64,000 nt of DNA from Chitinophagaceae bacterium IBVUCB2 (GTDB taxonomy: Bacteria > Bacteroidota > Bacteroidia > Chitinophagales > Chitinophagaceae), in contig NFUV01000002.1 in assembly GCA_002127295.1 (NCBI GenBank), positions 992,001 through 1,056,000 on the forward strand. The letters run 5' to 3'. The position numbers and the translations under genes were made by a program. Of this stretch, positions 7,770-55,468 are shown piece after piece. The notes below the pieces were generated by a model that saw only the letters and a program-made list of their open reading frames with translations, did no database searches and had not been told where the DNA came from. Positions within the stretch are counted from its first letter, which is position 1. Each line of letters begins with the position of its first letter.

Positions 7770-9794
7770 TTATGCGATTAATTGAATGTTTACAGAAGTT
7801 CCATTGCCCGGTGATGATACAATATCCAGTTTGCCATTGAAATATTGTACCCTGTATTGAAGATTCGTCATACCATTTCCCGACGTGGTTGCTAATTTAT
7901 ATTTATCAAACCCTTTCCCATTATCTTCTACTGTAATGCTTATTTTGTGCTCATGCATTGTCAGCTGAACAATGATCTCACTTGCATTAGCATGTTTAAC
8001 AGCGTTGTTAACTAATTCCTGGATTATCCGGTAGATGTATACTTCAGCCGTATTTTCTAATTTCCTGTTTTCTCCAAACTGCTGGTATAATATCTTTACA
8101 GCGGGCAACGATTGCATTGATCTGCAAAAATCCCTGAGTGCATCTTCCAATCCAAACTTTACCAGCGTCTCCGGCATCAGGTTTTGTGCCACCTTACGAA
8201 GGTCCCCAATCGTATTGTCGAGCATACTTACAGATCTATCAAACATTGTTTTGTTTTCAACGGATAGTGCAATATGCTCTTTTACATTTATGAAAGACAT
8301 TTTTGTTCCGGATAATAAACTGCCAATCCCATCATGTAATTCTTTGGCAATACGACTTCGTTCTTCTTCCTGGCCTTTTAACATTGCATTAATCGTCAAC
8401 AATTGTTTGTCTTTCTCAAGCTCAATGATTTTTTGTTGTTGTAATTCTTGCTCTTGTTTCGTGAGTTGTTGATTTTTTTTAAAATTAATATAGCCGAGAT
8501 AGCCAAAGAACAAGAGTGCAATGATAGAGCCAATAAAAAATTTATTCAGCAATGACTTTTGTTTTACAGAAGCAGTCTGTATTTCTTTTTCACTTTGCAA
8601 CTGTATAATCTCTTTTTCTTTTTTGTCTGATTCATATACGGCTGCCAGTGTATTCATCTGGTTGAGGTTTGCTTCTACAGACAGGCTGTCTTTTAGCGCA
8701 GCTGCATTAGCCAGGAAAGTATATGCTTTTGCATTGTCATTTATTTCGTGGTAATAATCAGAAAGGTTCAGGAGTGCATTTATTTTCCCGATTTTCGCAT
8801 TTATTTTGTCAGCCACAGCTAGATTTTCGTCTGCATATTTTTTTGCTAATTCTGTCTTTCCTGATTGTAATGCTGCTTTAGAAAGATAATATAAGGCAGC
8901 AGTTTTATTATCGTTATGCCGGCTTGCAGCTGCTACTTCATAAGCTTTTTGATAGTAAAAAATGGATGAATCATATTGCTGTTCCATAAAATAAATCAAC
9001 CCCCGGTTCATATAATAACCTGAATTGATCATTAATTGTACGGGATCCGGCATATAAGGCTTCATTTTATCAAGATAGATAGTGGCCAATGCTAATTCAT
9101 TATTTCTTAAATAGATCTCAGCTAATGATAAGTGGGCCTGCACTTGCATTATCGTATCCGCTCCCTGTGTGGCAAGGGTCACATTTTTTGTGGCATACAC
9201 AATTGCCTGTGGATAATTGTTAACCCGGGAATAGGTATTTGCAATGATGGTATATAAGTTCATGGTGGCAACCTTGTTCCTGCTTTCAAAGTATTTTAAT
9301 GCCTCAAAAAAATGATTTAATGCCGTGTAATAATTTTCCTGTTCATGATAAATCCATGCTTTTCCCCGATGACTATTTGCTTTGTATTCTAATAAAGTTT
9401 CATTGAATGAACCTTTCGCCAGTTTAATGGCCGAATCGTAATATAGATGGGCTGTTTCCCGGTACAGCTCACTCTTATAAAAGTGCCCTTTCCACACATA
9501 ACATTTTACTAATCCCTCCTGGTAATTCAATTGACGGCTAATTGATATCGCTTCCTCGCAATAAGGAAACAGCTCTTGTCTTTGTTTTTTTATAAGTGCA
9601 GTTGAAATTACATCCACCAAAGCGTTAACTCTCCCTGTATCTGGGTGTGGGAATTTCTTGAGGGCAGCAATAGCTTTTTCTTTTCTTTCTTCGTATCCAC
9701 TGACTATGCTACTTCCAATATCCTGTGCTCTCAGTTGAGTGCACTGTAAAAAAGAAATTACTCCTGCTAAAATGAAAGAACGAAACTGTAACAT
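7770..9794 (-). CDS. TPR-repeat sensor histidine kinase (HisKA_3 type)
   Basis: A 674-residue kinase with an N-terminal signal segment (ILAGVISFLQCTQLRAQ) and a long run of tetratricopeptide repeats (about 35-385, outside the cytoplasm). One transmembrane helix follows (FFIGSIIALLFFGYLGYINF), then a coiled coil (KKNQQLTKQEQELQQQKI) and a HisKA_3 dimerisation domain with phospho-acceptor H487 in AKELHDGIGSL. An HATPase_c domain (IQELVNNAVKHAN, DNGKGF, GNGMTNL) closes it. This layout is common in Bacteroidota, where the TPR part is thought to take the place of a ligand sensor. It partners the NarL-type regulator directly downstream. The signal is unknown. Confidence 0.93.
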   Translation of the reverse strand: MLQFRSFILAGVISFLQCTQLRAQDIGSSIVSGYEERKEKAIAALKKFPHPDTGRVNALVDVISTALIKKQRQELFPYCEEAISISRQLNYQEGLVKCYVWKGHFYKSELYRETAHLYYDSAIKLAKGSFNETLLEYKANSHRGKAWIYHEQENYYTALNHFFEALKYFESRNKVATMNLYTIIANTYSRVNNYPQAIVYATKNVTLATQGADTIMQVQAHLSLAEIYLRNNELALATIYLDKMKPYMPDPVQLMINSGYYMNRGLIYFMEQQYDSSIFYYQKAYEVAAASRHNDNKTAALYYLSKAALQSGKTELAKKYADENLAVADKINAKIGKINALLNLSDYYHEINDNAKAYTFLANAAALKDSLSVEANLNQMNTLAAVYESDKKEKEIIQLQSEKEIQTASVKQKSLLNKFFIGSIIALLFFGYLGYINFKKNQQLTKQEQELQQQKIIELEKDKQLLTINAMLKGQEEERSRIAKELHDGIGSLLSGTKMSFINVKEHIALSVENKTMFDRSVSMLDNTIGDLRKVAQNLMPETLVKFGLEDALRDFCRSMQSLPAVKILYQQFGENRKLENTAEVYIYRIIQELVNNAVKHANASEIIVQLTMHEHKISITVEDNGKGFDKYKLATTSGNGMTNLQYRVQYFNGKLDIVSSPGNGTSVNIQLIA

Positions 9795-10098
9795 GGAGTT
9801 GAAATTGAAGATGCAAATTATGAATTTATCGGCCTTGCTAAGAATGTTCTGAAAAAAATCACCCTTTTACGGGATAAATTTTCGGAGCAAATAATTGTCC
9901 TCCATCGTTGTTATTTACTTTGATAACCAAGTTACAGAGATTTGATAGCTACAATAAATCACTCTTTTACGTTAGATACTCTAATTGGCGTACTTAGAAT
10001 ATTTGCAGCTGTATTTATTGCAACTTATAAACCCTTTAGTAAAAAATAATTCAACATGCAGTAGGTAATGTTGATGCTAAACTTACAAATCAATTTAA
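9795..10098. other. 304-bp divergent intergenic region with a spaced direct repeat
   Basis: This region separates the kinase gene (minus) from a small secreted-protein gene (plus), so it should hold both promoters. I see no exact TAnnTTTG on either strand; AATATTTG near 10000 is a one-mismatch candidate for the plus-strand gene. The only striking element is the 16-bp direct repeat listed separately. No small ORF or RNA gene is evident. Confidence 0.5.
9856..9971 (+). repeat. 16-bp direct repeat with 100-bp period
   Basis: AAATCACCCTTTTACG at 9856-9871 and AAATCACTCTTTTACG at 9956-9971 differ at one base and are exactly 100 bp apart, in the shared upstream region of the kinase pair and the next gene. 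They could be paired operator sites. The function is unknown. Confidence 0.5.
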
Positions 10099-45721: not shown

Positions 45722-48700
45722 ATGCAACCAAAATTTACTCTATTAAAAGAGTTATTCTGCATGAGATTTCTTCCGATGGCAATCGTTCTGCTGCTATCGT
45801 TGCAATTCTCCTATGCACAAAAAGCTACTAATGGGGCAAGGCCTCAGCCCACAGTCACTAATAAAGTGACAAAGCCTTTGACAAAAGAGGATATGGAAAA
45901 GCAGCAAACCGCTGTTTTTTCGGGCAACAGCAATGATGCCGGACGTCCTGCTCCAGCAAAATTATTGACTAATGGAATTCAAACAGAAGCTATTTGTACC
46001 ACATATACTGGTGCATTGACTGCTGCTGATCCTACTTTAACTGGGGGCAGATTTTTTAGAGATGGTGTTCCTTCAACATGTGCTGTTCCTAAACCTGCTT
46101 GCCCTGGTACATCGGGTGCTGCGGGCAACAGTTATAGAACTCACACCTTTACAAATTCACAAGCGGTGCCTCAGTGTATAACAGTTACTGTAGGTACTAC
46201 GGATGCTACTTTTACTTCTTTTGTTTCTGCTCATCTTGGAAGCTTTGACCCAACCAATGTTTGTACTAATTACCTTGCTGATGCTGGTAGCAGTGCTGGT
46301 TTAGGAGCTCCTATAACTTTCTCATTCACTTTGCCAGGTAGCGCCACCGTTGTTTTTGCTGTGACTACACTTACACCTGGTGTATTTGCTGGTAACTATA
46401 GTATTTCAGTAGATGGTATTTGTACTCCTTGTGTACCTACAAATGCTACTGCTCCGGTTATTTCTTCAGTTCCTTCCAGCACTTGTGCCGGCTCACCAAT
46501 TACATTAAGTATTCTTAGTGGTTCATTGAATGGTGCTGCAAACTGGGTATGGTACGCTGGTGGCTGTGGAACTGGTGCTTCAATCGGTACCGGAACTTCA
46601 ATTACTGTTAGCCCCGTTGCTAATACAACATACTTTGCTCGTGGCGAAGGTGGTTGTGCTCCAGCTCCTGGTCCTTGCGGATCACAGGCTGTAACTGTCA
46701 GTGCTTGTAGCTGTATATCTCCTGATGTTTCTACAATATGTGCTGGTTCAGTGCAAGCTTTGAGAGTTAATCAAACTCTTCCGGCTACTGTTTCTGCTCC
46801 ATTTACCGCTGCCGGTGCTATAACTATTAATGCCTCAGGAAATGGTAGTCCTTATCCTGCTACTCTTGCAGTTGCAGGTTTACCAGGTGGTGCAACAATT
46901 AATTCAGTAACACTAACTGGACTTTCTCATACATTCCCTGCTGACGTTGATATCGCCTTACGTTCTCCATCAGGTCAAACTGTTATTCTTTTGTCAGATC
47001 AAGGCGGTGCTACAGATGCCGTGAACGCTAATCTTACTTTCAGAGATGGTTCACCGGCTGTGCCAGCTGTAATAGTTACTGGAATTTACAGCCCAACAAA
47101 TATTGGAGTACCTGATAATTTCCCTGCACCAGGTCCTGGTTCAGTTTCTCAGGCTACACCACTTTTATCTTCTATTTCTGGAAGTATGAATGGAACATGG
47201 GAGCTTTTCGTTGTAGATGACTTAGGTGGCGATGCGGGTTCTATTTCTGGTGGATTCAGCATTACATTTAATTTGCCAGCTACAACTGCTACCTGGTCTC
47301 CAGTAACGGGATTGTTTACTAATCCTAATGGTACTGGTGCTTATGTTGCCGGTACTCAAACTGCAGTCGTTTATGCAAGTCCGGCTACAACAACTACATA
47401 TACTGCTACTGTAAATAACGGACCTTGTGTAGGTGCCAACACAGTTACTGTAAATGTTCTTCCTGTTTCAACAGTATCAGTTACTCCTAACGGTTTACCT
47501 AGTGGAGTTTGTGCTCAGGCTACATTAGTTGCTACTGGAGCCAGTATTTATAACTGGACACCTGCAACAGGATTGAACACAACAACTGGTTCTACAGTAA
47601 TTGCTTCTCCTAGCGTAAATACAACTTATACTGTAAACGGGTATAGTGCTAACGGATGTCCTACAGCTCCAGTAAGTGTACAAGTTTTAGGAACTTCTAC
47701 TTCTGCTGTTATCAGCAGCTTAGGAGCACCTCCTACTACTATCTGGAATGAAGGTTTAGATGGTGTTATTCCTCCTGCAGGCTGGAGCATACAAAATAAT
47801 AGTGCTCCTTTGGGTGTTACTACCTGGCAGCAGGGAAGTACAACCGGTGTATTCCCATCTCAAAGTGGAGCTGGTTTTGCTTCGACTAACTTCAACAATA
47901 CTGCTGGTACAGGAACAATCAGTAACTGGTTCTTCAGCCCGACAACTACCATGCAGAACGGTGATATATTTGATTTCTGGGCCAGATCAATTAATGGAGG
48001 TTTCCCAGACAGACTTCAGGTTAGGTTGAGTACTAGTGGTGCGAGCACAAATGTTGGTGCAACTGCTACTTCAACTGGCGATTTTGGAACTCTGTTGCTT
48101 GATATTAACCCAACTTACAATACAACTGCATTTCCAAATGTTTGGACAAGATATACTGCAACTGTTTCCGGACTTCCTGGTCCAACATCGGGTCGAATCG
48201 CATTCAGGTATTTCGTTGAAAACGGAGGCCCTGCGGGTGCTAATTCAGACTTTATAGGTGTTGACAATGTGTCTTTACTAAGACCACCATTAGCAACTTG
48301 TGCTAATACATTATCCAATATTAAGGTTGATATTAGTGGCGGAACAGGACCTTATACATTGGTTTACACAAATGGTACAACCAACTTTATCGTTAATGGT
48401 TATGTAAGCGGAACACCAATCGATGTATTCCCATCAGCTACTACTACATATACAATTGTATCTGTAACAGGTGCTAATGGTTGCGTAGGTATTGGTAATA
48501 CAGGTGCAGCAGTTATCACTGTTACACCGCCGCCATCAATAACAACACAGCCGGTAAACAGAACAACATGTGCTGGTTTAAATACATCATTCACTGTGGC
48601 AGCAGGTCCATCACTTGGTACAACTTACCAGTGGCAGGTTAGCACAAACGGTGGTGGTACTTATACCAACATTGCTAATGCTGCTCCTTATTCTGGTGCA

Positions 48701-49660
48701 ACAACAAACACTCTAACTATAACTGGAGCGACTGTTGGTTTAAACCAAAACTTGTACCGTGTGGTTGTAAGTGGTGCATGTCCTGCTCCTGGTTCAAGTG
48801 TTACAAGTGCTGCAGCTACATTGTTTGTAAACGTAACTCCAACAATTGTTACACAACCTGCAAATACAACAAGATGTCTTGGTACTACTGCAACATTTAC
48901 TGTTGTGGCAAACACACCAAATGGTCCTGCGGCATCTACCTATCAGTGGCAGGTAAGTACTAACAATGGACTTACTTATACAAATATTACCGGTGCTACT
49001 GCAGCAACATTATCGCTTACAAACGTTGCGCTTATACAAAATAATAACTTGTACAGAGTGGTTGTAACTACTGCACCTTGTGCTACTACAGTTACATCAA
49101 ATGGTGCAAGATTGAATGTTAATGCGCTTCCTGTTATAACAATTTCATCTCCATTAGCTGAATTGACTCCTGGTGTTACGACTGTAATTACCGCTACTAC
49201 TTCACCAGCGGCACTTACTTCAACCAGCTATTCATGGACACTTAATGGAGTAACAGTTGCGGGTGCGAATACTTCAACTATTCCTGTTGACATCGACAAA
49301 TTGGGTGCATACCGTGCTACAGTTACCGATGTTAATGGATGTGTGAACAGTTCTAATGTACTGGTTATTGGTGCACAATCTTCTGACAGACTTTGGATTT
49401 ATCCAAATCCATCTGATGGCCAATTCCAGGTTAGATTGTTCTACGGATCGCCAACAGCTGAGGCCGATAGCCGTGTAGTTTCTGTATACAATTCACAAGG
49501 ACAATTGGTAGCGAGAAAGAACATTGATTTAAGAAGAACTTCTCCTCCATACGTTCAGGTTACATTTGATCTTAGCAATCAACCTGCAGGAACTTATGTG
49601 GTGAAGGTTACTGAAAAAACTACAGAGAAAGTTGTAAGTGGATTCCTTACTATACTCTAA
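45722..49660 (+). CDS. Giant T9SS-exported adhesin-like protein with P-domain and Ig-like repeats
   Basis: A 1312-residue surface protein. A signal peptide (LPMAIVLLLSLQFSYAQ) starts it. Next come a Cys-rich region, a proprotein-convertase P-domain-like segment (about 350-520, SLTGLSHTFPADVDIALRSP-type text with GTWELFVVDDLGGDAGSISG), then Ig-like and a choice-of-anchor-J-like domain (about 670-860, WNEGLDGVIPPAGWSIQNNS to DFIGVDNVSL). Two adjacent Ig-like repeats with TYQWQVSTN follow (about 940-1120). A T9SS type A sorting domain ends it (SDRLWIYPNPSDGQFQVRLF to VVSGFLTIL). It should be secreted and attached to the cell surface. It lies directly upstream of the chaperone-usher-like unit but has its own terminator. 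Ligand unknown. Confidence 0.88.
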   Translation: MQPKFTLLKELFCMRFLPMAIVLLLSLQFSYAQKATNGARPQPTVTNKVTKPLTKEDMEKQQTAVFSGNSNDAGRPAPAKLLTNGIQTEAICTTYTGALTAADPTLTGGRFFRDGVPSTCAVPKPACPGTSGAAGNSYRTHTFTNSQAVPQCITVTVGTTDATFTSFVSAHLGSFDPTNVCTNYLADAGSSAGLGAPITFSFTLPGSATVVFAVTTLTPGVFAGNYSISVDGICTPCVPTNATAPVISSVPSSTCAGSPITLSILSGSLNGAANWVWYAGGCGTGASIGTGTSITVSPVANTTYFARGEGGCAPAPGPCGSQAVTVSACSCISPDVSTICAGSVQALRVNQTLPATVSAPFTAAGAITINASGNGSPYPATLAVAGLPGGATINSVTLTGLSHTFPADVDIALRSPSGQTVILLSDQGGATDAVNANLTFRDGSPAVPAVIVTGIYSPTNIGVPDNFPAPGPGSVSQATPLLSSISGSMNGTWELFVVDDLGGDAGSISGGFSITFNLPATTATWSPVTGLFTNPNGTGAYVAGTQTAVVYASPATTTTYTATVNNGPCVGANTVTVNVLPVSTVSVTPNGLPSGVCAQATLVATGASIYNWTPATGLNTTTGSTVIASPSVNTTYTVNGYSANGCPTAPVSVQVLGTSTSAVISSLGAPPTTIWNEGLDGVIPPAGWSIQNNSAPLGVTTWQQGSTTGVFPSQSGAGFASTNFNNTAGTGTISNWFFSPTTTMQNGDIFDFWARSINGGFPDRLQVRLSTSGASTNVGATATSTGDFGTLLLDINPTYNTTAFPNVWTRYTATVSGLPGPTSGRIAFRYFVENGGPAGANSDFIGVDNVSLLRPPLATCANTLSNIKVDISGGTGPYTLVYTNGTTNFIVNGYVSGTPIDVFPSATTTYTIVSVTGANGCVGIGNTGAAVITVTPPPSITTQPVNRTTCAGLNTSFTVAAGPSLGTTYQWQVSTNGGGTYTNIANAAPYSGATTNTLTITGATVGLNQNLYRVVVSGACPAPGSSVTSAAATLFVNVTPTIVTQPANTTRCLGTTATFTVVANTPNGPAASTYQWQVSTNNGLTYTNITGATAATLSLTNVALIQNNNLYRVVVTTAPCATTVTSNGARLNVNALPVITISSPLAELTPGVTTVITATTSPAALTSTSYSWTLNGVTVAGANTSTIPVDIDKLGAYRATVTDVNGCVNSSNVLVIGAQSSDRLWIYPNPSDGQFQVRLFYGSPTAEADSRVVSVYNSQGQLVARKNIDLRRTSPPYVQVTFDLSNQPAGTYVVKVTEKTTEKVVSGFLTIL

Positions 49661-49684: not shown

Positions 49685-49718
49685 AATCCCCCCGTTCAAA
49701 AACGGGGGGATTTTTTAT
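49685..49718 (+). terminator. Strong terminator behind the T9SS adhesin
   Basis: A perfect 12-bp stem, AATCCCCCCGTT (49685-49696) with AACGGGGGGATT (49701-49712), with a CAAA loop and a following T-tract. It separates the adhesin from the next unit. Confidence 0.95.
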
Positions 49719-50141
49719 TTAAATAATAGAAGTTTGTGTTTCAGTGTTTAAGAAAGTCAGCAGTATGTTACTGAATGAAGAATAAAGAATCCCATTCTAA
49801 CTCATACGTTCAGCGAAAACCATATTAATACTTATTGAATTCTTTATCCTTGTAAAAAAATTGAATGAGTTATAAATTCTAATTTATATTGTTGTTACAA
49901 CATTATTTTGAATCAAAGAAAATAGTAGATTTACGATGCGCTTTTTTTTGCATTATTAAAAAAATGTGGAAAAACAATTTCGCTTATATAAATAATTTAT
50001 CTACTTTAGCCTAATCAACGTTGAAAGGTTTTCTCTCTGATCAAGTAGCCCACTATCTACACTCCTCTGAACCCAACCACCGTAAATCAACCTCTGGATT
50101 ACCACAGTAACAATTTTTTTTTTAATTCTAAATGTAAAAAA
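49719..50141. other. 423-bp AT-rich upstream region of the fibre-like unit
   Basis: Non-coding on both strands as far as I can see. It holds a weak promoter (listed separately) and a leader of about 130 nt that is pyrimidine-rich (CACTATCTACACTCCTCTGA, AACCCAACCACCGTAAATCA), ending in a run of T before the ATG. A long leader of this sort is unusual in the window and may carry post-transcriptional control. No riboswitch motif is recognised. Confidence 0.5.
49978..50009 (+). promoter_or_regulatory. Possible promoter of the fibre-like unit
   Basis: TTTCG at 49978-49982 and TACTTTAG at 50002-50009 are one base each away from the TTTG and TAnnTTTG elements, with 19 bp between. Transcription would begin near 50015. 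Confidence 0.35.
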
Positions 50142-50771
50142 ATGAGAAAAATTTTTTTCACAGCCTTATTGGCTATTGGTTCGTTTGTAGCAGTAAATGC
50201 ACAAACAGCTAACACGGTTTACAACCAGAACTGTTGTTCAAGAGAGTCTGAAGTTAATTTAGACATTGACATCAGACCTATTCTTTGCCTTTATCCTGAG
50301 TGTGATCAGAATGGTTATGTTGATTACAATTGCAGAGAAGATTTTGATGCTGCAAAGTATTTCAGACAAAATAATGGTATCGGAAGCCCAGATTTCCAAT
50401 TCAGTGTTTGGTCTAACATCACTCACAAAGTAAGCACAACTGCTGATGGTGCTAACTTCAATCGTACAGGTGGTCCAGTTGCTGGATACAACAATTTCCC
50501 TGTAGGGAATGTACTTTGGAATCTTAAAGCTGCTCCAATTACAGCTATTGGAGCTCCTTTAGCTGCTCCTGGCAACTATCAGTTAACTGATAAGACTTTG
50601 AGCACAACTGATGCTAGTGGTGACAATACATTGAATAATGTACCATGGGGTGTTCGCAGTTTTACTTTGAATTTCAGAGTAAAGCCAGGTGCTGCTTTGG
50701 CACATCACCCAACTTCTTATGCTCCAGGTGAGTACACTATGCAGGTTGATATCACAGCTACTGCTGATTAA
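50142..50771 (+). CDS. Small secreted Cys-rich protein, candidate major structural subunit
   Basis: A 209-residue exported protein (signal FFTALLAIGSFVAVNAQ). The mature N-terminus has two adjacent cysteines (NQNCCSRESEVNLDID) and four more within 50 residues (ILCLYPECD, VDYNCRED). The rest is predicted beta-rich and ends in PGEYTMQVDITATAD, the sort of terminal strand seen in fimbrial and spore-coat-U-like subunits. I cannot name its family. It is the first gene of the unit, with a long leader before it and a terminator-like hairpin behind it, so it would be made in greater amount than the genes downstream. Candidate major subunit of a surface fibre or coat (inference). Confidence 0.65.
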   Translation: MRKIFFTALLAIGSFVAVNAQTANTVYNQNCCSRESEVNLDIDIRPILCLYPECDQNGYVDYNCREDFDAAKYFRQNNGIGSPDFQFSVWSNITHKVSTTADGANFNRTGGPVAGYNNFPVGNVLWNLKAAPITAIGAPLAAPGNYQLTDKTLSTTDASGDNTLNNVPWGVRSFTLNFRVKPGAALAHHPTSYAPGEYTMQVDITATAD

Positions 50772-50782
50772 TTTGTTCGCAT

Positions 50783-50820
50783 AATAGAAGTCCTTGCTTT
50801 ATGGCGGGACTTCTATTTTG
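50783..50820 (+). terminator. Hairpin between the subunit gene and the barrel gene
   Basis: AATAGAAGTCC (50783-50793) pairs perfectly with GGACTTCTATT (50807-50817), followed by TTG. A partial terminator here would lower expression of the downstream assembly genes relative to the subunit. Confidence 0.8.
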
Positions 50821-50866
50821 TGTTGAAAGTGTTGTGTTCCCAGTTATAGTTATAACTGTACTTTTT

Positions 50867-53623
50867 ATGAAACTGTCTTTACCTTACTTGCTGTCAATTA
50901 TACTATCATTAGCTGTCACAAGCTTTACAGAAGCTTCGGCACAGCTTGCTGATATTACTGTTTCCTATAGAGATTCACTGGAAAGCGAAGAAGAGGATAA
51001 TAAGCTGTTATCAAATAATATTTTTTTTTCGAATAAGGGCCTCAAAGAAAGTGAACTTTTAGTTAGTATTCATGATACTACAGGATGGAAGTTAATTGGC
51101 GAAAAAAAGCAAATTATAAAAATTCTGCCGGGCACTACCCGGCTCATTTCCTTAAATTTTATTAAAAGCGCAACCGCATCATCTAAATGGCTGCCAGTAA
51201 AAATAGTAGTGCTGGATAAAATCAATATTTTATCTGCCACCTATTCCTTCCAACTCAAAGCTCGACCAGTAAAGAGGTTTGAACTTACGGGTAATGAAAC
51301 AGAGTTTTATGTGCAAAAAGATACCCGTAACCTGGCGGTTAAATACACGGTAAAAAATACGGGCAATACTGACGATATAATAGATGTAAATATCCAGAAC
51401 CCATTTTTTAATTTATCGGAGAATAAGAGGTTGAAACTGGAAGGTGGTGAAGAATATAACGGGGTAATTAATTTAAGGGTCACTGACCTCATGAAACAAA
51501 AATTGATAAAAGAATCTATTAAAATATCTGCAAGAGGATATAGAAAGAAAACCGTACTGAGTTTAAATGTAAACAGGTTATTGAACACAGCAAAAAAGCA
51601 TACATCAGCATACCCCACTTTTCCCATAGAACTTGAAACCGGAATTTTAAAATCATTTAATCAAAACAGTTTTTATTTGGGCTTTAGTGGTGAAAAAGTA
51701 CTTAAAAACGGTGCAAAATTAAAATATGGCTACCGGAGCAAACAGTTTGGAATTGCTAACCGCTTAGAGCAACATATTTTCCGTGTCGGCTATACTACAG
51801 ATAAATGGTCAATCTATGCGGGAGAGATGGCTGATATGGGTTATTTTAATGCATTTGGCCAGGGATTTAGCGGTACACATTTTTATAAGAAAAAGCTGGA
51901 GCTGGGAGTTCGTTCCATTTTTCACAACCGTGCCTCTCCGGTTAAAAATGATATGGGGGAAATATTTGTTAAACACAAATTCAAAAAAGTATCTTTTAGT
52001 CATTCGTTAAGTGTAAATGTCAGCAGACCAGAACGTAGAGGTAGTGTTTTACTTTCTACAGAAGCATCGTTGATAAGCACAACTAATTTTTTATTGACAG
52101 TAAAAGCTGCTGCAGGCCAGGATCATTTTATGGTAAAGGTTCCCGGCGTTCCATTTGAAAAAGCCGGTACGTTATTCGGCTATTCAACGTCCTACACTTT
52201 GGGAAAAGTATCACTCAATTCAGACATGCAAATAGGCTCTTACTACTTGCCGGGTATTTATTCAGGAAGCAATATTCAGAACCATGCTTTATCTGTAGCA
52301 CTCGGAAAGTATGCGGTTGGTTTGAATTACCAGAGAAATGAAGTACAAACAAAAAATTTTCTTTTTCGGGACACCATCTTCAATACAGCTTTTTTTGAGT
52401 TAAACATGGAGCGGTATGGGGTCACCGTTTCGAGACAATTCAAAAAGATTAATATTTCCCTCGGTGCAGGAAAATTCAAACAAGTGTCCACCTTTACCTC
52501 GCAATTGCCGGCCTATAATTTTATTGATTTTGCTTCTACCTACAGAATTAATCAAAACCTCCTCTTTAGTATCAGATCGGCATCAGGATACAATTCTACG
52601 GTGGGTATTAAGGGGCAAAAAGTATGGGTATCAAATAGCAGTGCTTTATTGGATACTAAATTTGGAGGCATACGGGCTTTGTATGTAAGGATCCCAAGAA
52701 TATTACTAGGTTTAAGTGGAGCAGATTCATTGGTTGAACGGGAAACCATGAGTATCTCACCTTATATTAAACTTAGCCTGTTTCAAAAAACGCTGATTGG
52801 AAATATTGGATATTCAATTGCCCGTTCGTCGTTTGATAATAATACTATCTCATTTTTAACAACCTCTCTCAACTACAAGAATAAAAAAAATGGGTTTGAT
52901 GTAAGAGTTTTTGGAAACATACCTATTTCTTCCTCAGAATCTGATTTTTTTCAGCGGGGTAATAGTAATTTCAATATCACTATTTTTAAAAAACTTAATG
53001 TCCCTATACCGTTTAAGAAAAAATATCACACACTTAGTGTTAAGCTCTATAAGGATATTAACCAAAATAAACAGCTTGATGCTGGTGAACAGCCCATACA
53101 AAATGCAATTGTTAGAATAGGTCAAAACTCATTTGAAACAGATAAATACGGGAGTATTCATTATAAAAATATTGAAAATGGTTTTTACCCGTTAGATTTT
53201 TCCTCTGTAAGCACAGAAAAAAGCATGATCCCGGCAGATGGCTTTAGGCAATTCCCAGAAGTTAAAGGTCGTAACACATCTATATCTATTCCGTATCAAA
53301 AAGGAAAATTAATTGAAGGAAAAATTGATATAATTCTTGATACATTTTCTGCTAAGAAATTTTTTGCGAAAGGGTTAAAAATAGTTGTGTCAGATACTAG
53401 CGGTAACTATTATATCGCATTTGCTGATGAAGCAGGAGATTTTTTTGTAAGCGTTCCTGCGGGCAGATATAAGATTTCTCTTAATCCCGAAGCTTTCTCT
53501 GCTGAAATACAGCCCGATCAAATGGAATATGTATTAGATATTGGGAAAGATGAGGATGTGACAAAAATTTTATTTACAGTTCGGCAAAGAAACCGACAAA
53601 TAATTTATCTAAAAAATAATTAA
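50867..53623 (+). CDS. Usher-like outer-membrane beta-barrel protein
   Basis: A 918-residue outer-membrane protein. The frame is open from 50801, but the ATG at 50867 starts a proper signal (LPYLLSIILSLAVTSFTEASAQ). Residues about 25-230 look like one or two Ig-like domains (DSTRLI-type strands and VKNTGNTDDIIDVNIQNPFF). Residues about 250-720 alternate short polar and aromatic strands (LKYGYRSKQFGIANRLEQHI, TLFGYSTSYTLGKVS), as in a large barrel. The C-terminal 190 residues hold carboxypeptidase-regulatory/SdrD-like domains (LYKDINQNKQLDAGEQPIQN, FADEAGDFFVSVPAGRYKIS). This order (periplasmic domain, large barrel, two C-terminal beta domains) parallels fimbrial ushers. I see no detectable usher family motif, so this is analogy. 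Confidence 0.7.
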   Translation: MKLSLPYLLSIILSLAVTSFTEASAQLADITVSYRDSLESEEEDNKLLSNNIFFSNKGLKESELLVSIHDTTGWKLIGEKKQIIKILPGTTRLISLNFIKSATASSKWLPVKIVVLDKINILSATYSFQLKARPVKRFELTGNETEFYVQKDTRNLAVKYTVKNTGNTDDIIDVNIQNPFFNLSENKRLKLEGGEEYNGVINLRVTDLMKQKLIKESIKISARGYRKKTVLSLNVNRLLNTAKKHTSAYPTFPIELETGILKSFNQNSFYLGFSGEKVLKNGAKLKYGYRSKQFGIANRLEQHIFRVGYTTDKWSIYAGEMADMGYFNAFGQGFSGTHFYKKKLELGVRSIFHNRASPVKNDMGEIFVKHKFKKVSFSHSLSVNVSRPERRGSVLLSTEASLISTTNFLLTVKAAAGQDHFMVKVPGVPFEKAGTLFGYSTSYTLGKVSLNSDMQIGSYYLPGIYSGSNIQNHALSVALGKYAVGLNYQRNEVQTKNFLFRDTIFNTAFFELNMERYGVTVSRQFKKINISLGAGKFKQVSTFTSQLPAYNFIDFASTYRINQNLLFSIRSASGYNSTVGIKGQKVWVSNSSALLDTKFGGIRALYVRIPRILLGLSGADSLVERETMSISPYIKLSLFQKTLIGNIGYSIARSSFDNNTISFLTTSLNYKNKKNGFDVRVFGNIPISSSESDFFQRGNSNFNITIFKKLNVPIPFKKKYHTLSVKLYKDINQNKQLDAGEQPIQNAIVRIGQNSFETDKYGSIHYKNIENGFYPLDFSSVSTEKSMIPADGFRQFPEVKGRNTSISIPYQKGKLIEGKIDIILDTFSAKKFFAKGLKIVVSDTSGNYYIAFADEAGDFFVSVPAGRYKISLNPEAFSAEIQPDQMEYVLDIGKDEDVTKILFTVRQRNRQIIYLKNN

Positions 53624-53641
53624 GACATTGAAATTGTACAT

Positions 53642-54484
53642 ATGAAACGGAAATTATTTACAACATTATTATTTATTCTTTTCCTGATTGCGGCACAGGG
53701 GCAGAACCAGGGCGATACAAGCAGCTTAAAAAAAGCAAAGGGAATGATTGTGCTGCCCAGTATGGTATATTTTAATCTTACGAATGGCCAATCAGCAACT
53801 CGTGAAATAACGATCACTAACCGACTTCCTGAAAAGAAGCAATACAAAGTGTATCTTGGAGATTGGGAGAGGGATAGTATGGGTGATCATAAATATTCAC
53901 CTGCAAATTCCATTTCCCGTAGCTGTGCTAGATGGATTAAACTAAGCAGAGATGTTATAGAGTTAGAACCCGATTCTTCAGCTGTTATATCGGTACGAAT
54001 GCAAATGCCTGACTCAGCGGAAGCCATCCAGGAAATGAAATGGGCCATGGTGTTTATTCAATTGGTAAATGAAGAAAAAGCACATAAAACTGAAAAGGAT
54101 ATTACTCAGCAGGTTATTTATAATTTTCGTATGGGAGTACATGTATACCAAACACCCCCAAATTTGAAACGAGTTTATCTTAGCATGCTTAGTTTCAAGA
54201 ATATTGTTAATAAAAAGGATTCTATCCTTTATCAAATTGCCTGTCTTAATGAAGGTACCCAGCAGTTAAAAGTTAAATGTAACTTTATAATGACTAATCT
54301 TTCTACTGGGGAAAAAACAAAATTGCCACAGCAGGATTTTCCAATGTTCCCGGGTCAGAAGCGGTTGGTGAATTATCTTGTTCCAAATGGACTAAAGCCA
54401 GGTAAATATTCAATCCTGGCAACTGCTGATGGAGGTGATGATATGCCTTTGCAGGCATCCCAGGCAGAAGTTGATATTCAATAG
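53642..54484 (+). CDS. PapD/DUF916-like periplasmic chaperone
   Basis: A 280-residue exported protein (signal KLFTTLLFILFLIAAQGQ). It has two Ig-like parts. The first (about 30-165) fits the PapD-like pattern: MIVLPSMVYFNLTNGQSATR, EITITNRLPEKKQYKVYLGD, RWIKLSRDVIELEPDSSAVI and MKWAMVFIQLV. The second (about 170-280) is another beta sandwich (QIACLNEGTQQLKVKCNFIM, FPGQKRLVNYLVPNGLKPGK). In chaperone-usher systems such proteins cap subunits on the way to the outer membrane; DUF916 proteins of WxL systems have a similar fold. It starts 18 bp behind the barrel gene and is followed 13 bp later by a small secreted protein, all one operon. Confidence 0.72.
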   Translation: MKRKLFTTLLFILFLIAAQGQNQGDTSSLKKAKGMIVLPSMVYFNLTNGQSATREITITNRLPEKKQYKVYLGDWERDSMGDHKYSPANSISRSCARWIKLSRDVIELEPDSSAVISVRMQMPDSAEAIQEMKWAMVFIQLVNEEKAHKTEKDITQQVIYNFRMGVHVYQTPPNLKRVYLSMLSFKNIVNKKDSILYQIACLNEGTQQLKVKCNFIMTNLSTGEKTKLPQQDFPMFPGQKRLVNYLVPNGLKPGKYSILATADGGDDMPLQASQAEVDIQ

Positions 54485-54497
54485 TAAAAGTGAAAAA

Positions 54498-54980
54498 ATG
54501 AAAAGCGGCCTAACAATTATTGTATTAATGATAGCAATGGTATCTTTCTCTCAACCATTGATGCGGCAAAATGAAATGCTGGTTACACAGAACAGTGCTA
54601 TTAGTTTTTCATATGCCACTGCAGAAGAAATGCTTTATCCTAAAACTATTAATAATGCATTTAATGTAAAAGTGAATGTGGGTAGCGATATTGTAAAAGT
54701 TTATGCCAGTGTGATGGTTCAGGGCAGTATGCGCAACACAGAATTAGGAAATTCACTTAATCTTCACCTGAACCATAAATCCTCCGGGGCTGCTATAATA
54801 AGCAATATTGATGTCCCATTAAGCGGAACACCGGTTTTATTGTTTACTTTACCAAGGGGAAGTAGTACTAATTTGCAGGAATATTCTTTTGTGTATGATG
54901 TAAAGTTGCTGGCACCAAAGAATTTTATTAAGCCTGATATGTATAATTATACAATTGTATTTTCACAAACTATACAATGA
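54498..54980 (+). CDS. Small secreted beta protein of the fibre-like unit (A)
   Basis: A 160-residue exported protein. The frame is open from 54429, but the ATG at 54498 gives a clear signal (SGLTIIVLMIAMVSFSQ) and sits 13 bp behind the chaperone stop. The mature part is beta-rich: NEMLVTQNSAISFSYATAEE, NNAFNVKVNVGSDIVKVYAS, VPLSGTPVLLFTLPRG. It ends in DMYNYTIVFSQTIQ, a strand-like tail resembling subunit ends. No family is recognised. It overlaps the next gene by 4 bp. Likely a minor subunit, tip or anchor protein of the same structure (inference). Confidence 0.68.
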   Translation: MKSGLTIIVLMIAMVSFSQPLMRQNEMLVTQNSAISFSYATAEEMLYPKTINNAFNVKVNVGSDIVKVYASVMVQGSMRNTELGNSLNLHLNHKSSGAAIISNIDVPLSGTPVLLFTLPRGSSTNLQEYSFVYDVKLLAPKNFIKPDMYNYTIVFSQTIQ

Positions 54981-55468
54981 AAAAATTATTTATAATATCT
55001 TTCTTCCTGATTCCCCTTTTTGTTATGGGCCAAACAGGTAGTGGAATGCAAACCGTAGCTGGCTCAGTTGAAATACAGGCATTACAGGATTTGAAAGTGG
55101 AAATAGTTGATCCTTCCCCTCTTAGTTTTAATGATCCCCAGGAAATTGAAAAAGGAATTTTGCGTCCGGGTTACTATCGTTTAACCATCATAAGTAATGT
55201 GCCATGGTTAATTACTGTTGAAACTAATACTCCTTTTTTCAAACCCGCCAGTGTTGGGGCTGCTCCGAATGCGAATATCAGTATGGTAGAGGTAAAAGGG
55301 AACAAAGGAGGTTTTATCCACTTAACTAATACGCCACAAACTGTTCTCGTTAGTGAAACCAATGCCATTAAAACAGTTTTCTATCTTGATTTGCGGATCA
55401 AACCCTCGGTACTTACTTCTGGAGGTAAATATTCATCTCCGGTTTTATTTGTATTATCTCCACAATAA
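54977..55468 (+). CDS. Small secreted beta protein of the fibre-like unit (B)
   Basis: A 163-residue exported protein with signal KLFIISFFLIPLFVMGQ. The mature part has strands such as GSVEIQALQDLKVEIVDPSP, LSFNDPQEIEKGILRPGYYR and HLTNTPQTVLVSETNAIKTV, ending in KYSSPVLFVLSPQ. The LSF..P..I..G pattern and the end strand recall DUF4402/fimbrial-type subunits, but I would not assign a family. Its ATG lies inside the stop of the previous gene (ATGA), so the two are translationally coupled. It is the last gene of the unit, before the convergent pgi gene. Confidence 0.68.
   Translation: MKKLFIISFFLIPLFVMGQTGSGMQTVAGSVEIQALQDLKVEIVDPSPLSFNDPQEIEKGILRPGYYRLTIISNVPWLITVETNTPFFKPASVGAAPNANISMVEVKGNKGGFIHLTNTPQTVLVSETNAIKTVFYLDLRIKPSVLTSGGKYSSPVLFVLSPQ

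Follow-up and report, generated by a model that had tools for sequence, protein, structure and literature searches.

A five-gene unit of a Chitinophagaceae bacterium probably encodes a fibre-assembly system resembling the chaperone-usher pathway

The window analysed here is a stretch of 64,000 nt from Chitinophagaceae bacterium IBVUCB2 (contig NFUV01000002.1, positions 992,001 to 1,056,000), whose 4.0-Mb genome is assembled in 3 contigs. Five open reading frames (ORFs) of the ORF list, all on the + strand at 50142-55468, encode an usher-like outer-membrane barrel protein, a periplasmic chaperone and three small proteins referred to here as subunits (Table 1). The initial annotation, which was made from the letters of the sequence, had proposed that this unit builds a surface fibre. 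Its description of five exported proteins encoded in one direction was exact in both coordinates and spacing: the barrel gene is followed by gaps of 18 and 13 bp and then by a 4-bp overlap, while 95 bp separate the stop of the subunit 1 gene from the barrel start. The start at 49719 that it quoted is not a gene start and lies just past the hairpin, with no ORF of ≥70 aa between 49719 and 50142. The barrel start was set to the ATG at 50867, which yields a signal peptide, and that of subunit 2 to the ATG at 54498; the listed ORFs open at 50801 and 54429, respectively. Pfam and NCBIfam scans of the unit proteins of the window gave weak matches only, with no curated usher, PapD or pilin model above its cut-off.

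Table 1 Features of the five-gene unit and of its upstream boundary, in positions of the window
Feature	Position	Strand	Length (aa)	Basis or remark
Terminator-like hairpin	49685..49712	+		12-pair stem followed by a T run; bounds the unit upstream
Subunit 1, putative donor-bearing fibre subunit	50142..50771	+	209	Mature protein with 5 Cys; 63 residues between predicted mature N-terminus and aligned motif
Usher-like outer-membrane barrel protein	50867..53623	+	918	AlphaFold2 model; Foldseek top matches FimD/PapC
Two N-terminal Ig-like domains of barrel protein	50954..51577	+		Model residues 5-212; assigned from DSSP strand pattern
Predicted beta-barrel	51617..53053	+		Model residues 226-704 (DSSP); without inserted plug domain
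C-terminal carboxypeptidase-regulatory/SdrD_B-like beta domains of barrel protein	53108..53587	+		Model residues 723-882
Periplasmic chaperone, two Ig-like domains	53642..54484	+	280	AlphaFold2 model; Foldseek; hhalign of wider family
Low-confidence loop before last strand of chaperone domain 1	54065..54127	+		Model residues 122-142; pLDDT blocks 64, 56
Putative donor strand of chaperone	54128..54151	+		Model residues 143-150; proposed role
Subunit 2, without N-terminal donor segment, proposed tip or first subunit	54498..54980	+	160	35 residues to motif
Subunit 3, donor-bearing, proposed adaptor or shaft subunit	54977..55468	+	163	47 residues to motif

Full-length barrel homologues occur in other genomes, and the chaperone and subunits recur as one block, which rules out chance for the five-gene unit. 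The single barrel sequence found matches in 19 of 147 family genomes including its own, many of them full length at 21-29% identity. Chaperone homologues adjoin the barrel in 13 of the 23 other barrel loci that were read, and many barrels have as neighbours small exported proteins that share a strand motif at the C-terminus. A chaperone profile detected 28 of the 147 genomes, and a barrel profile found full-length barrels (matches over >500 of 908 profile positions) in 22, all 22 of which carry the chaperone (P = 4.6e-21, the relatedness of the genomes being ignored). The partnership of usher and chaperone within a genome is thus also seen for this barrel and chaperone. Since 13 of these genomes had contributed rows to the chaperone profile, the other nine, which gave none, provide a fairer check; the chaperone is present in 9/9. 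At any length, the barrel profile matched 61/147 and 99/395 genomes, but most of the listed matches are short and lie in the C-terminal domains, and the second tally, for which two candidates per genome were scored, was not used.

The genes are not always found side by side. In six of the 22 genomes, barrel and chaperone are on separate contigs, and in each case (6/6) subunit-profile genes lie beside the chaperone. Of the seven barrel loci with no nearby chaperone, L034 and L038 clearly encode a subunit, L033 gives a weak match, and no subunit gene shows in the other four within the stretch read. Homologues in genomes devoid of the small proteins had been named by the initial annotation as evidence against its proposal, yet the genomes of these four loci (L036, L037, L039, L043) encode a chaperone with adjacent subunit genes elsewhere (in G020, G117 and G073, and in G132 as locus L067). 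Two of the four contain longer barrel-homologue ORFs (L036, 7199-10372, 1057 aa; L039, 5697-9182, 1161 aa), with the chaperone on another contig of the same genome. Conversely, six genomes have a chaperone and no full barrel match: G022 and G145 show a weak barrel match within 3 kb, the assemblies of G079, G092 and G049 are drafts that are 89, 60 and 83% complete, and the chaperone match of G085 is itself weak (E = 6e-10).

When named genomes were scanned for the chaperone, 53 loci emerged, including representatives of Pedobacter, Chitinophaga, Niastella, Longitalea, Flaviaesturariibacter, Lacihabitans and Litoribacter. The survey of gene order in other Bacteroidota that the initial annotation had suggested shows that the unit recurs: within the stretches fetched, 51 of the 53 chaperone loci contain subunit-profile genes and 27 a barrel. 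The two loci without subunits are a 4-kb contig (L078) and a contig that ends inside the barrel gene (L088). A close relative in a Bacteroidia metagenome bin (L051) has the same five-gene order and a chaperone 88% identical to that of the window. Across the phylum, the chaperone profile found at least 36 of 395 genomes and at least 23 of 170 genera, these being lower bounds because at most 6 candidates were scored per genome. When 20 of the 45 phylum places were opened, a barrel-profile match was present within five ORFs in 18, two of which reach no better than E = 0.004-0.006, and 16 gave a match to the subunit profile at E = 0.1. In 8/20 places (L115-L118, L120-L122, L124), a 341-478-residue protein matching the subunit profile adjoins the chaperone or the barrel; by analogy, such proteins recall two-domain tip adhesins.

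The chaperone was modelled with AlphaFold2 from 48 sequences (47 of the 53 loci and the window). The model (predicted local distance difference test, pLDDT, 90.2; predicted template modelling score, pTM, 0.83) contains two immunoglobulin (Ig)-like domains, as the initial annotation had anticipated in describing a two-domain PapD/DUF916-like protein. Its closest structural match by Foldseek is the WxL-interacting protein (WxLIP) of E. faecium (E = 4.0e-12), followed among PapD-type chaperones by CfaA (5.2e-10), CsuC (4.4e-9) and Caf1M (5.5e-8); query template modelling (TM) scores are 0.52-0.53 for WxLIP and 0.44-0.51 for the PapD-type chaperones. As in chaperone-usher chaperones, a flexible loop precedes the last strand of domain 1: residues 122-142 are poorly ordered, and in the following strand, 143-150, R143, H147 and Y149 are invariant in the 48 aligned sequences. 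This arrangement in the model is compatible with a chaperone that donates a strand to an incomplete Ig fold. According to PMC10599100, a loop of WxLIP is unstructured alone and predicted to become a strand that completes the beta-sandwich of its WxL partner.

Profile comparisons bear out a relationship with both families. A 26-row profile, hand-picked across the whole chaperone family, matched seven K-12 PapD-type chaperones by hhalign at 96.3% (E = 1.6e-9), collinear over 197 columns and both domains. Because four of the 26 rows were weakly supported (L145 was included by gene position alone, and L143, L144 and L146 by weak matches), the comparison was redone with 22 rows and gave 95.5% (E = 1.4e-8), with an alignment that contains signal-peptide columns. 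The hhalign E-values refer to one comparison each. In control comparisons, the 26-row profile reached 40% over 45 columns with the subunits of the units, 1% with K-12 pilins and 0.6% with K-12 ushers. Comparisons with EcpB/EcpE (0.6% and 18%) involved a profile of 2 sequences, too thin for judgement. Against the PDB, the 26-row profile matched WxLIP (E = 1.2e-11), with no PapD-type chain among the matches listed to E = 1. The window chaperone alone falls below the Pfam PapD_N cut-off, and PF06030 (WxLIP) scores 17.3 bits on it, under the cut-off of 27.3. The chaperone is thus PapD-like in fold, and for the wider family homology extends both to PapD-type chaperones and to WxLIP.

The barrel protein was modelled from 27 sequences (26 of the 27 barrel-bearing loci, the split gene of L088 being omitted, and the window; mean pLDDT 83.9). 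The model bears out the 918-residue barrel with Ig-like N-terminal and carboxypeptidase-regulatory-like C-terminal domains that had been read from the sequence, and its predicted domain order is that of an usher: periplasmic N-terminal domains, large barrel, C-terminal beta domains. The initial annotation had asked about 24 strands, as in the usher pore, and a plug; the model shows 27 strands of ≥7 residues between residues 226 and 704, and no plug. In a Foldseek search of 350,542 PDB chains, the top seven hits are all FimD or PapC (E = 7.0e-15 to 2.2e-12). A serine protease comes eighth, and the highest-ranking barrel other than an usher is LptD (E = 2.2e-7). The Pfam scan gave no Usher (PF00577) match on the window barrel. 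Pfam Usher was above cut-off in 0/188 Bacteroidota genomes and was detected in the E. coli positive control; the sole weak match among the 188 (G315, locus L143, 20.1 bits against a cut-off of 27.1) is an ORF whose C-terminal part matches the window barrel profile and which adjoins chaperone-like and DUF4402-like genes. Barrel homologues of the close clade share a basic C-terminal tail with the consensus FEIKQKKRxINIKK.

The subunits provide a link to known fibres. Subunit 1, previously taken for a small Cys-rich secreted protein, is exported and Cys-rich; it is not a protein of a separate kind and belongs to the subunit family, since phmmer matches it to small proteins encoded next to the barrel in three further genomes (E = 9.3e-6, 7.6e-5 and 2.3e-4). 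A profile of 30 subunits had TLP-2 (5.1e-4) and TLP-1 (1.1e-3) as its only strong matches in the PDB, and with a profile of 86 subunits (83 of 115 candidates and the three of the window) the values were 4.7e-8 and 6.9e-7, the N-terminal strand being included in the match. TLP-1 and TLP-2 (PDB 9ikj, 9ikk) are the Tsinghua Lotus Pond fibrils of CryoSeek, reportedly found by cryo-electron microscopy in lotus-pond water and held together by donor-strand exchange; at 236-237 aa, their chains are longer than the window subunits. A search with a TLP-2 fragment returned one match in 395 phylum genomes and five in 176 genomes of the family of that genome. In all five genomes with TLP homologues, a barrel, a chaperone and two TLP-like subunits follow in order on one strand, and by eye the first TLP-like subunit has an N-terminus of donor length while the second does not (5/5). 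The window subunits were also considered as DUF4402 proteins, a candidate that was rejected for lack of a Pfam match.

The subunits fall into two classes by their donor segment, measured as the number of residues that separate the aligned motif from the predicted start of the mature protein. Across the 53 loci, the length is ≤35 residues in 29 of the 38 measured chaperone-adjacent subunits and in 6 of the 76 others (P = 1.3e-13, again ignoring relatedness), the measure omitting 4/42 and 2/78 subunits, respectively, that were unmeasurable. Such a donor-less class is as expected of a tip subunit, assuming from its sequence that the segment acts as a donor strand, and subunit 2 of the window belongs to it. 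The last two small proteins, which the initial annotation had described alike as small beta proteins, are both subunits but differ in that subunit 2 lacks the donor segment. Two other loci show variations. In L097, a 305-aa protein (8952-9869) starts as donor-less subunits do and meets the motif a second time 182 residues further along; it appears to be a donor-less subunit naturally fused to another one. In L121 (6660-9461), four tandem genes for 181-aa subunits with near-identical ends lie upstream of the chaperone, which suggests repeated duplication of a shaft subunit.

The proposal that an usher analogue builds a surface fibre is thus supported computationally by the Foldseek matches, the fold and profile of the chaperone, the TLP match and the joint occurrence of the genes. 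We estimate at about 0.8 the probability that the unit is a fibre-assembly system working like the chaperone-usher pathway. With that pathway it shares a two-Ig chaperone, a large barrel between N- and C-terminal beta domains, clustered genes, and small Ig-like subunits that end in a Gly-x-Tyr strand, with one donor-less subunit in most measured units. It differs in occurring in Bacteroidota, in the resemblance of its chaperone to WxLIP, and in a barrel that has two N-terminal Ig-like domains. Because neither the Usher model nor a plug was found, the unit should not be classed among the classical chaperone-usher operons; most likely it is a working fibre system of the chaperone-usher type, from a branch that current family models miss.

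Several observations weigh against this reading. Profile-profile comparisons of the barrel with K-12 ushers show no similarity (0.4%, 0.3%), which upholds the caution of the initial annotation regarding usher ancestry, and Pfam Usher is absent among the matches listed (25 of 29 families) for the window barrel and 26 relatives. The pTM of the barrel model is only 0.56. Ushers carry a plug domain of about 80 residues, and the longest inter-strand stretch of the model has 19 (468-486). With the seven usher chains the TM-score reaches only 0.25-0.30 (query) or 0.29-0.37 (target), and the isolated usher pores 2vqi (5.5e-7) and 3ohn (2.1e-6) score no better than LptD and TonB receptors; the lead of the full-length ushers arises because the barrel and its flanking beta domains count together. 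The usher likeness of the modelled barrel is accordingly good for architecture and function, and unproven for ancestry. As for the chaperone, its best match in both sequence and fold is WxLIP and not a PapD-type protein, its close family reaches only 10% with the seven K-12 chaperones (hhalign), and CEP192, a generic Ig tandem, matches its fold at 1.9e-9, though with a lower TM-score. Among the subunits, the TLP fragment finds nothing in the window genome, and the TLP link runs through distant relatives only; K-12 pilins align with the subunits over the last strand only (profile comparison); Pedobacter units have no donor-less adjacent subunit (43-45 residues); and four Chitinophaga-type loci have only one recognised subunit.

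The prominence of WxLIP raises an alternative in which the two-Ig protein is a WxLIP-like anchor that remains attached to the small proteins as part of a coat on the cell surface, with the barrel serving only to export or display that coat. It would fit the fold match to the biofilm scaffold RbmA (4.7e-10, although the query TM-scores for RbmA and CEP192 are low, 0.30-0.35), and also the clustering of WxLIP (DUF916-DUF3324, Gram-positive) with genes for small and large WxL proteins that PMC10599100 describes. In the same paper, most WxLIPs have a C-terminal transmembrane helix, whereas the model of the window chaperone ends in a beta strand of domain 2. No WxL family is among the matches listed (25 of 41 families) for the 86 subunits, and the wider chaperone family also matches PapD chaperones. 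To our knowledge, WxL clusters lack an outer membrane barrel. We consider this alternative improbable; it would moreover share the step of strand donation, because the WxL sandwich, too, is predicted to be completed by a strand from WxLIP (PMC10599100).

Still less probable is that the barrel acts as a general exporter or nutrient porin and that the small Ig-like proteins stay monomeric at the surface and form no polymer. The low TM-scores to ushers, and LptD and TonB-dependent receptors that match about as well as isolated usher pores, would agree with such a role, but it would not account for a subunit profile that matches the fibre subunits TLP-1/2, for two subunit classes that differ by an N-terminal segment of strand length, or for the constant partnership of barrel and chaperone. 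That the unit is the already known type V (FimA/Mfa) pilus of Bacteroidota, likewise an Ig-like strand-exchange fibre, is very improbable, as no Pfam or NCBIfam fimbrillin family matches the window proteins or the 30 subunits, the predicted mature subunits open with a conserved Gln and not a lipobox Cys, and type V pili, as far as we know, have no chaperone-usher pair.

For the chaperone-usher-like system, we hypothesize the following course of assembly. The subunits would enter the periplasm through Sec-type signal peptides, where the chaperone would bind each of them and lend a strand of domain 1 (from the loop and strand at residues 122-150), completing an incomplete Ig fold. The chaperone-subunit complexes would then dock at the periplasmic Ig domains of the barrel, the N-terminal strand of the next subunit would displace the chaperone strand, and the growing fibre would leave through the barrel pore. 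Since subunit 2 is without an N-terminal donor segment and could only accept a strand, it would be exported first, as the tip, followed by subunits 1 and 3 as shaft and adaptor.

More distant loci suggest a wider range. In 72,556 plasmid records, the only match of the chaperone search was on plasmid p_2 of Deinococcus sp. D7000 (L147, 5876-11541; E = 3e-6, 24% identity). By profile this chaperone scores 1.6e-25. Its neighbours are a gene found by the subunit profile (1.1e-6) and a large gene whose N- and C-terminal domains, but not its pore strands, match the barrel profile (1.2e-18). Divergent loci of the Bacteroidota phylum have small proteins that are DUF4402 (PF14352) or resemble it; three of ten tested match that family above cut-off, one each in L144, L145 and L146, loci of a design similar to that of the window, whose own subunits do not match this family. 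Their barrel-sized genes match the barrel profile over the C-terminal domains only, and their chaperones are weak matches (L144, 1e-6; L146, 2.7e-5) or assigned by position only (L145); the L146 chaperone scores 18.8 bits against PapD_N (cut-off 23). The DUF4402 loci are thus weakly tied to the unit of the window. In two of them, the large gene encodes a C-terminal SPOR domain (L144, 7197-10712, 1.3e-16; L145, 6967-10440, 5.4e-7) and lies next to a DUF4402 protein and to a gene that is chaperone-like in L144 and chaperone-sized in L145; some such large proteins may therefore be linked to the cell wall or the site of division.

These loci extend the picture to a phylum-wide branch of the chaperone-usher kind, comprising Bacteroidota and a Deinococcus plasmid, in which a plug-less usher would build TLP-type donor-strand fibres, the chaperone would form the evolutionary link between PapD-type and WxL-interacting proteins, and DUF4402 proteins would be pilins. 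The balance of evidence tilts slightly towards this broader picture, the weak tie of the DUF4402 loci counting against it. The branch perhaps reaches to Deinococcota, and the role of DUF4402 is plausible.

Upstream of the unit, and separated from it by the terminator-like hairpin, lies the gene for a 1312-aa type IX secretion cargo protein (45722-49660), with Por_Secre_tail, choice-of-anchor J domain and proprotein convertase P-domain matches (Pfam, NCBIfam).

Searches of the open-licence literature on fibres, ushers and WxLIP gave no description of the five-gene unit among the entries listed. PMC4654587 assigns archaic chaperone-usher systems to Proteobacteria, Cyanobacteria and Deinococcus-Thermus, and restricts all others to beta- and gamma-proteobacteria. 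What is new here is the set of links between Bacteroidota, TLP fibres, WxLIP and DUF4402. The unit is a candidate second fibre pathway for Bacteroidota, a group not known for chaperone-usher machines, and a candidate assembly machine for the TLP fibres, which were solved without a known builder. If the broader picture is true, DUF4402 becomes a pilin family, and a common origin is suggested for the strand-lending chaperones of Gram-negative and Gram-positive surface systems.

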